Part shown: positions 9,041-10,213 of the stretch, piece by piece
Layout: each line of letters opens with the position of its first letter
How positions within the stretch are numbered: position 1 is the first letter of the stretch
Source: a virus
DNA: 22,834 nucleotides
Virus record (IMG/VR): IMGVR_UViG_3300020125_000143
Span: 1 to 22,834 of that record
Direction: 5' to 3' (one strand)
Notes under the pieces: model-generated
Told to the model about the DNA's origin: nothing
The model's database searches: none
What the model saw: only the letters and a program-made list of their open reading frames with translations
Program-made: the position numbers and the translations under genes

Positions 9041-9043
9041 GTC

Positions 9044-9071
9044 GTCGACAAAACGTCGACAAGTTGTCGAC
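9044..9071. repeat. Three GTCGAC palindromes phased at 11 bp
   Basis: GTCGAC occurs at 9044-9049, 9055-9060 and 9066-9071, each exactly 11 bp from the next, about one helical turn. The last two combine into a larger inverted repeat, GTCGACAA-G-TTGTCGAC (9055-9071). The array ends 10 bases before the candidate -35 box at 9082. Phasing on one DNA face and location suggest a protein-binding array controlling capsid expression. Confidence 0.6.
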
Positions 9072-9081
9072 AGTTGAATAC

Positions 9082-9111
9082 TTGATTTTAACTCAGCACA
9101 AGTTCTACAAT
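9082..9111 (+). promoter_or_regulatory. Candidate promoter for the capsid gene
   Basis: TTGATT (9082-9087) and TACAAT (9106-9111) are 18 bp apart. The -10 lies within an inverted repeat, CTACAA (9105-9110) with TTGTAG (9119-9124), which could be an operator. Transcription would start near 9118, giving a leader of about 148 nt before the capsid start at 9266. Confidence 0.5.
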
Positions 9112-9137
9112 TATCCTGTTGTAGTGCACAGACTTGC

Positions 9138-9260
9138 GCGAGTGTGTGTAGTATGACCGGCGTATCGGCACTCGCCCTGCCATCTCGGCGTAATTGAGAA
9201 TCGCCAACTCAAGACGTACGTAAGCTTCGTCAGCTTGAAGTATTTATTTATTTCAAGGAG
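9138..9260 (+). promoter_or_regulatory. Structured 5' leader of the capsid message
   Basis: Several stems lie between the candidate promoter and the capsid start. GCGAGTG (9138-9144) pairs with CACTCGC (9169-9175), enclosing CCG (9157-9159) with CGG (9166-9168). GGCG (9187-9190) pairs with CGCC (9202-9205). AAGCT (9222-9226) pairs with AGCTT (9232-9236). A U/A-rich unpaired patch (9241-9253) then precedes the strong AAGGAG (9255-9260). This layout could stabilise and enhance translation of an abundant capsid mRNA. No coding frame is evident in 9041-9265. Confidence 0.45.
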
Positions 9261-9265
9261 CCGAC

Positions 9266-10213
9266 ATGGCAATAACTACAACCAGCACGTTGCCAGCACC
9301 GGTGCAGCAAAGCTTTAGCTATAAATTGCTCTCCGTGCCCGTGCCTAACATGATTCATAAAATACCTGCGATGAAGAAGAATATGCCCCGCAATGGTGGT
9401 ACAACCCTTCGTATGCGCAGATATAACCCATTGAATACTGCAATGGTTCCACTTGGGAACTCTGGCATTACTCCACCGCCACAAAACTTAACAGCGGTAG
9501 ATATTGATGCAAAGATCTCTTTTTATGGAACTTATGTTCAATTAAACGAGCAAGTAACATTACAAAACCAAGATCCAGTTCTTAATGAATGTGCAGCTCG
9601 TCTTGGTGTATCTCTTCGTCAAACTGAAGATCAGTTAACAAGAGATATGCTTGCATCAACTGCATCATTTATTAACTGTACTGGTGGTGTTAATGGTGAC
9701 ATCCCAACAGAAATTACACGTTCAGATGTTGATACTGTAGTTCGTACGCTCTTAAACAATAATGCGTACACAATTATGGATAACATCGAAGGTGAAGATA
9801 AATTCGGTACAGCTCCAGTTCGTGATGCATACTTTGCATTATGCTCTACGCAGCTTACTGGAAACCTTGATAACGTTGCTGGATTTATACAGAAGAACCA
9901 ATATCCATCACCAATGAATGCTCTGCGTTCAGAATGGGGTGCAATTGGTAACCTTCGTTTCTTAATATCTTCTATCGGTTCAGTTACACCAGCAGCTTCA
10001 AGCTTAGGTGCGAGCGTATTCAACATTTTCTGTGTTGGTATGGAAGCATATGCGTGTATTGAGCAAGATGGATATTCAGCAACATTCATTTATCGTCCAC
10101 CAATTTATGATGGCCCACTTGCGCTTAATGCGTCAGTTGGTTACAAGTTCGCGGAAGTTCCACGAATCACCAACGATTTGTGGGTTATTAACCTTCGTGC
10201 AACTTTAGCTTAA
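9266..10213 (+). CDS. Major capsid protein, N4-gp56 family
   Basis: A 315-residue protein with AAGGAG 5 nt before ATG 9266. The N-terminal part has GGTTLRMRRYNPLNTA (about 43-59) and a proline-rich loop NSGITPPPQNL, then YGTYVQLNEQVTLQNQDPV (about 91-109), the order found in the N4-gp56 family of HK97-fold capsid proteins. The C-terminal half contains strands typical of the A domain and ends with an IYDGPLALNASVGYKF strand pair. Length is slightly short for the family (often 300-400). It follows scaffold, portal and terminase genes. An antisense frame inside it is a shadow. Confidence 0.93.
   Translation: MAITTTSTLPAPVQQSFSYKLLSVPVPNMIHKIPAMKKNMPRNGGTTLRMRRYNPLNTAMVPLGNSGITPPPQNLTAVDIDAKISFYGTYVQLNEQVTLQNQDPVLNECAARLGVSLRQTEDQLTRDMLASTASFINCTGGVNGDIPTEITRSDVDTVVRTLLNNNAYTIMDNIEGEDKFGTAPVRDAYFALCSTQLTGNLDNVAGFIQKNQYPSPMNALRSEWGAIGNLRFLISSIGSVTPAASSLGASVFNIFCVGMEAYACIEQDGYSATFIYRPPIYDGPLALNASVGYKFAEVPRITNDLWVINLRATLA

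Follow-up and report, generated by a model that had tools for sequence, protein, structure and literature searches.

Tandem pseudoknots are known from the STAXI RNA motif (RF01728), in which a pseudoknot is repeated two or usually three times (PMC2864571). In phage, the operator of the T4 and RB69 gene 32 mRNA comprises a 5'-leader H-type pseudoknot of ~28 nt and, after it, a less structured AU-rich stretch that overlaps the ribosome site; the gene product binds this operator in autogenous control (PMC535899; PMC3014915). According to a 2010 review of T4, gene 32 may be the sole case among viruses in which a pseudoknot serves translational autoregulation (PMC3014915).

The locus considered here lies in a 22.8-kb fragment of a virus record (22,834 bp, hereafter the window), in which a chain of predicted pseudoknots precedes the gene for the major capsid protein. 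STAXI is the closest to this array in kind, its pseudoknots likewise being arranged in tandem, whereas its listed occurrences are in Enterobacteriales, with ssb, topoisomerase, antirestriction and XerDC genes as neighbours, and the capsid-leader array stands before a capsid gene at the predicted 5' end of the mRNA. The RF01728 model returned none of 25 records (the window and 24 relatives) at E <= 10, and a cmscan of the leader at E <= 10 did not report it either. The gene 32 operator, which shares a leader pseudoknot upstream of the ribosome site, would be the closest in function, but it is a single pseudoknot in the message of an ssDNA-binding protein, whereas the capsid leaders carry 2-7 tandem units before a capsid gene and their binder is putative. 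Furthermore, UUAA(A) repeats span the ribosome site behind the gene 32 pseudoknot; the capsid leader has instead an AU-rich spacer with a CTTRAA/TTYAAG hairpin. In the preQ1-I, SAM-II and rpsO S15 leaders, a strand of the pseudoknot competes with a structure that masks the Shine-Dalgarno (SD) sequence. Relative to these, the capsid-leader units are tandem and variable in sequence, and YA and YT are the few unpaired bases that they conserve, hence a small-molecule pocket is not evident.

No Rfam 15 family scored at or above its gathering threshold in the leader, with only chance-level matches at E <= 10, and literature searches for tandem pseudoknots together with phage or capsid yielded nothing except STAXI. 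The array represents a new candidate family of structured RNAs, with which a phage capsid message would begin and for which the RNA-family library searched holds no match. It would also constitute an independent and much larger candidate case of pseudoknot control in phage, being tandem, located at the mRNA 5' end and concerned with the most abundant virion protein. It is fairly probable that the locus places two elements side by side, namely a position-independent palindromic DNA site and a pseudoknot leader that controls the capsid post-transcriptionally.

Tandem pseudoknots in the capsid leader

Three tandem compact H-type pseudoknots, of the form GRCG-YA..[S2]-YT-CGYC-A-[S2'], were identified between positions 9159 and 9237 (Table 1). 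The general unit in the leaders of relatives consists of the S1 5' strand (RRCG), YA, a short loop, the S2 5' strand, YT, the S1 3' strand (CGYY), usually an A, and the S2 3' strand.

Table 1. Positions of features around the capsid leader of the window (S1 strands in square brackets, S2 strands in braces)
Feature	Position	Strand	Description
GTCGAC array	9041..9075	.	three 11-bp-spaced units; half-site plus palindrome with perfect core; single-copy, group-specific DNA site
TTGATT-N18-TACAAT, promoter-like	9082..9111	+	weakly supported; ends 47 nt before pseudoknot 1, against 4-7 nt in many relatives
TGCACA-N18-TAGTAT, predicted capsid promoter	9125..9154	+	8/12 consensus; from analogy with relatives and window sequence
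Pseudoknot unit 1	9159..9181	+	[GGCG]TATC{GGCA}CT[CGCC]C{TGCC}
Pseudoknot unit 2	9187..9212	+	[GGCG]TAA{TTGAG}AAT[CGCC]AA{CTCAA}
Pseudoknot unit 3, 3'-most	9213..9237	+	[GACG]TACG{TAAGCT}T[CGTC]{AGCTTG}; near-invariant GACG/CGTC type
Alternative hairpin CTTGAAGTA-TTTATT-TATTTCAAG	9234..9257	+	-8.8 kcal/mol
Major capsid protein gene	9266..10213	+	PHROG 1357, N4-gp56 type

As a guard against circularity, units were selected by their CGYA...YTCG anchors only, with no pairing demanded outside these, which provided 94 units from 68 dissimilar leaders. The outer pair 1 of S1 was Watson-Crick in 78 of these units, relative to 39.7 in shuffled sequences (maximum 54), and an S2 of at least 4 bp could be formed in 66, relative to 17.1 (maximum 31). 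When the units were placed in a fixed register, eight of ten pairs varied, both partners having changed, and the remaining two belong to the fixed anchor. Paired cells amounted to 79.5% as against 63.7% in shuffles, none of 500 of which was as high, and 224 cells with double changes were counted as against 87. This signal was lost when the partner was slid by 1-3 columns (0.10-0.15, compared with 0.472 in register).

Complete units occurred at a density of 3.47 per kb in the leader, 0.009 per kb elsewhere and 0.002 per kb on the opposite strand, whilst a finder that makes no use of the anchors recovered 1.32 units per 200-nt leader as opposed to 0.07 in dinucleotide shuffles. The arrays hold between two and seven tandem units, with seven at a 24-bp period in locus L212. 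The S1 helix of the last unit was GACG/CGTC in 31 of 32 leaders, and first units vary. S1 helices within one leader displayed only a weak tendency to avoid cross-pairing (24 of 88 the same against 29 expected, p ~0.1). We consider it almost certain that the pseudoknots exist; their covariation, strand specificity, 5'-terminal position in many relatives and near-exclusive linkage to the capsid family are likewise evident from the sequence comparison.

The linkage to the capsid gene was established with two scans of 2.9 million IMG/VR viral contigs that utilized the unit sequences and were blind to gene content. A total of 48 unit positions were retrieved, 45 of which preceded a capsid-family ORF (39-93% identity) by less than 400 nt, while two preceded an interrupted capsid gene by ~830 nt; the remaining match was an outlier on a GC-rich, unrelated contig. 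The neighbourhood typical of STAXI was accordingly not encountered, as 47 of the 48 blind matches precede a capsid-family gene. In locus L073, whose capsid gene has an interruption after residue 12-14, the units precede the first exon piece, and they are likewise upstream of the interrupted gene of L052, the first piece of which was not located. It is this leader RNA structure, and not the DNA triplet described below, that would be the conserved element controlling the capsid gene. Nonetheless, capsids of this type can do without the device, since in L175 (79% capsid identity) and in the cultured distant relatives checked the capsid ORF directly follows the previous ORF without such a leader.

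It could be argued that the array functions as ssDNA or as a repeat at the DNA level instead of in the mRNA, given that STAXI, the other known tandem pseudoknot motif, has been discussed as possible ssDNA (PMC2864571). This is most improbable for the capsid leaders, where the array is strand-specific in the mRNA sense, is always 5' of one structural gene, starts at the predicted +1 and adjoins the SD sequence.

Transcript start and proposed control of capsid output

The sequence TTGATT-N18-TACAAT, which the preliminary description had taken for the promoter of the capsid gene, is indeed present 10 bp past the GTCGAC array, but it is a weak candidate for that role. Promoter-like matches were not in excess in the region (5, compared with 7.3 +/- 2.6 in shuffles), and a transcript from this site would begin ~40 nt earlier than one from the promoter predicted here. 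In 19 of 43 leaders the -10 element of the best sigma-70-like match ended 4-7 nt before the first unit, where 4.1 were expected, and in those 19 the message would begin with the first pseudoknot. The window offers a comparable arrangement, with TGCACA at 9125-9130 and a mediocre -10, TAGTAT, at 9149-9154, 4 nt before pseudoknot 1. By analogy, the capsid transcript probably starts at ~9159-9161 from TGCACA-N18-TAGTAT and not from the site proposed earlier. An imperfect hairpin, CACAGACTTGCGCGAGTGTGTG, was also noted at 9125-9154, just 5' of pseudoknot 1, where it overlaps the predicted -35/-10 spacer.

At the other end of the array, an alternative hairpin could form. Its 5' arm overlaps the S2 3' strand of unit 3, and the AAG of the SD sequence AAGGAG (9255-9260) falls within its 3' arm. 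The S2 3' strand contained CTT in 25 of 40 last units as against 16 of 57 other units, and in 18 of 40 leaders (4.8 in shuffles) the last such strand together with the bases that follow could pair with the SD region over at least 6 bp. The hairpin overlaps the SD sequence only in part, and about half of the leaders tested lack it or have a weak form. As judged from these pairings, the CTT can pair with either the AAG of the pseudoknot or that of the SD sequence, the two being mutually exclusive.

We propose that the array is most likely a post-transcriptional device of the leader RNA that sets capsid output, through either translation or message stability. With the last pseudoknot formed, CTT would be paired to the upstream AAG, leaving the ribosome site open; with it disrupted, CTT would pair with the SD sequence and translation would drop. 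The remaining units would supply further binding sites for a trans factor, possibly the capsid protein, protect the 5' end, or do both. Whilst the switch, its ligand and the effect on expression are what we infer from sequence, control of capsid output at the post-transcriptional level in some form is likely, with a translational switch ranked ahead of a stability shield. Operation in the manner of the gene 32 operator is plausible on these comparisons.

The shield warrants consideration in its own right, as the tandem pseudoknots may serve mainly to protect the 5' terminus against decay (RppH/RNase E or RNase J), giving a long-lived capsid mRNA without any translation switch. Such a role would suit an array that begins near the predicted +1 in many relatives, a copy number that varies from 2 to 7 units, as for a dose-like stabilizer, and a sequence that drifts freely whilst the fold is kept. 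However, a pure shield predicts that the 5'-most unit would be the more conserved, the opposite of what was observed, the 3'-most unit being far more so (GACG in 31 of 32), and the S2 3' strand of that unit overlaps the SD hairpin. We therefore regard a shield alone as somewhat unlikely.

A broader interpretation, which we advance only tentatively, is that the translational device represents a new class of viral cis-regulatory RNA, in which a chain of 2-7 pseudoknots running from +1 on the capsid mRNAs of a large uncultivated phage group would count or sense the capsid protein or block 5' decay, and the last knot, by mechanical coupling, would open the SD sequence. The units of such a chain, near-identical in fold and divergent in sequence, would dose the major structural protein post-transcriptionally. 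The proposal provides a testable model for the setting of capsid dosage in tailed phages, and the dozens of natural variants at hand could reveal how unit number and sequence tune output.

The capsid gene and its occurrence

The region had no detectable similarity to known phages at the DNA level, and the capsid of a cultured phage annotated as N4-gp56 family was 26% identical to that of the window. Many relatives have a capsid gene interrupted by inserts (L034, L052, L063, L073, L074, L076, L078, L079, L092, L097, L099, L103, L197 and L202), at points that differ between loci, namely after residues ~13, 28, 52, 88, 104, 144, 224 and 300. Searches of interrupted loci against Rfam returned no intron match (seven loci at the gathering threshold and four at E <= 1), and these inserts are possibly unrecognized introns.

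Capsid relatives with 39-88% identity were found in 4 of 151 genomes of the phylum of a Chlamydiota MAG (L175, L176, L177, L178 and L180, in genomes G110, G037, G166 and G152), whilst 150 Pseudomonadota genomes contained one close match, on a short contig in a bin, along with distant ones. These occurrences are only a hint of a Chlamydiota host, the binning of phage contigs being unreliable. The window also encodes a tRNA-Glu (ttc) on the minus strand (2640-2713), amid the late genes of the phage fragment.

A single-copy palindrome in the late region

Three GTCGAC hexamers spaced 11 bp apart were confirmed at 9044-9049, 9055-9060 and 9066-9071, and the 22,834-bp window contains no further copy, with approximately two, unclustered, expected by chance. 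Positions 9055-9071 (17 bp) form an inverted repeat without mismatch, GTCGACAA-G-TTGTCGAC, which had previously been missed and which is nested in a longer palindrome common to relatives, AAYYGTCGACAA-N-TTGTCGACRRTT. The array can thus be described as a 25-bp palindrome, AACYGTCGACAA-N-TTGTCGACRGTT (9051-9075), with a third half-site; alignment of the copies in relatives led to the same 25-bp consensus, to which an additional, third 11-bp unit is often joined, for instance TTGTCTACAA. A helically phased palindrome like this one would suit a dimeric DNA-binding protein.

The palindrome was present in 29 stretches among the 2.9 million IMG/VR viral contigs. It belongs to this phage group, as homologues of the terminase, portal, capsid or a late protein of the window are encoded at 21 of the 28 loci that the scan newly retrieved. 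Among 19 relatives that had been picked by capsid similarity alone, 10 carried it at a score of at least 15.5, relative to a mean of 0.26 and a maximum of 3 for 300 scrambled palindromes, and six carried it at the stricter score of at least 17.5, relative to none for scrambled versions. An unbiased enumeration of palindromes also returned this one as the most shared (12 genomes, one copy each), although the genome set was partly drawn by the pattern itself and the 19-genome test is the cleaner of the two.

Each of 16 positive large records carried the palindrome at essentially one place, the position of which varied among the late genes. It was located upstream of the capsid gene (the window and G021), after the portal gene (G025, G031 and G034), after the terminase gene (G026), between portal and capsid genes (G027) or 3' of the capsid gene (G028-G030). 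In G002, G005, G022 and G023 it is inside an ORF, some of these copies being weak. Within G002 and G022 the ORF is an HTH_36 initiator-like gene, which is found both with and without the palindrome.

The preliminary description had read the hexamers as an array through which an activator or repressor acts on a capsid promoter at 9082-9111, and had named a spacing that is not conserved in close relatives as grounds for abandoning this. The geometry is suggestive, with three half-sites on one face of the DNA 10 bp from a promoter-like site, and in three relatives an array is also present 5' of the capsid gene, as an 11-bp GTCGAC pair in the near-identical L060 and L061 and as a degenerate copy in L005. 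Nearly all of the 80 relatives examined, however, lack it there, the start of the predicted capsid promoter is 53 bp downstream of the triplet, and elsewhere the array adjoins other late genes. A switch of the capsid promoter is highly unlikely, because the palindrome occupies one place per genome that varies among late genes and is sometimes within an ORF. The original observation is true and its reading is partly wrong: the helically phased palindrome is real, conserved and specific to the phage group, whilst its assignment to the capsid promoter did not hold.

The palindrome may alternatively be a small mobile or self-propagating repeat without a regulatory role, comparable to the Rickettsia palindromic elements, which insert in genes. 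Its identical sequence is found at non-orthologous places, at times in frame as a (T)VDxLSTV-like peptide, and a related second class, CGTGACA-NNN-TGTCACG, behaves likewise. This is nevertheless unlikely for an element that is strongly palindromic and conserved in sequence, that almost always has exactly one copy per genome, and whose exact-core copies in capsid-bearing genomes are intergenic and in the late region. Where the palindrome is inside an ORF, the peptides that it can encode are in apparently disordered linkers (G005, G022, G023, G032, G033, L089 and L090).

Strong palindromes or phased short repeats that are single-copy and flexible in position are likewise typical of parS, attP/dif, telRL and replication iterons. 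Searches of 28 relatives for the corresponding proteins returned no ParB-family protein (parS/ParABS), no phage integrase family member (attP of a tyrosine recombinase) and no ResT/TelK catalytic domain (telRL of protelomerase phages). No phage gene or protein family tracked the presence or absence of the palindrome significantly among relatives, its 49-bp consensus had no match in phage and plasmid records, none was found in the four MAGs with capsid relatives, and literature searches gave primer-type text matches only.

We favour a palindromic site shared across uncultivated phages with N4-gp56 capsids, of which the GTCGAC triplet would be the single copy in the window. It would most likely be bound by a symmetric protein in a position-independent role, as opposed to switching one promoter, and could serve as bait for a putative DNA-binding protein of this phage group.

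The second palindrome class, TTCARNYCGTGACA-NNN-TGTCACGRNYTGAA, was mostly single-copy per genome and also varied in place. It was observed in G001, G002, G003, G004, G009, G010, G013/G014, G020, G021, G022, G024, G026, G027 and G030, as well as in L088 and L089. The centre GACA-NNN-TGTC is common to this class and the GTCGAC palindrome, and the two were within ~35 bp of one another in L088, L089 and G004.
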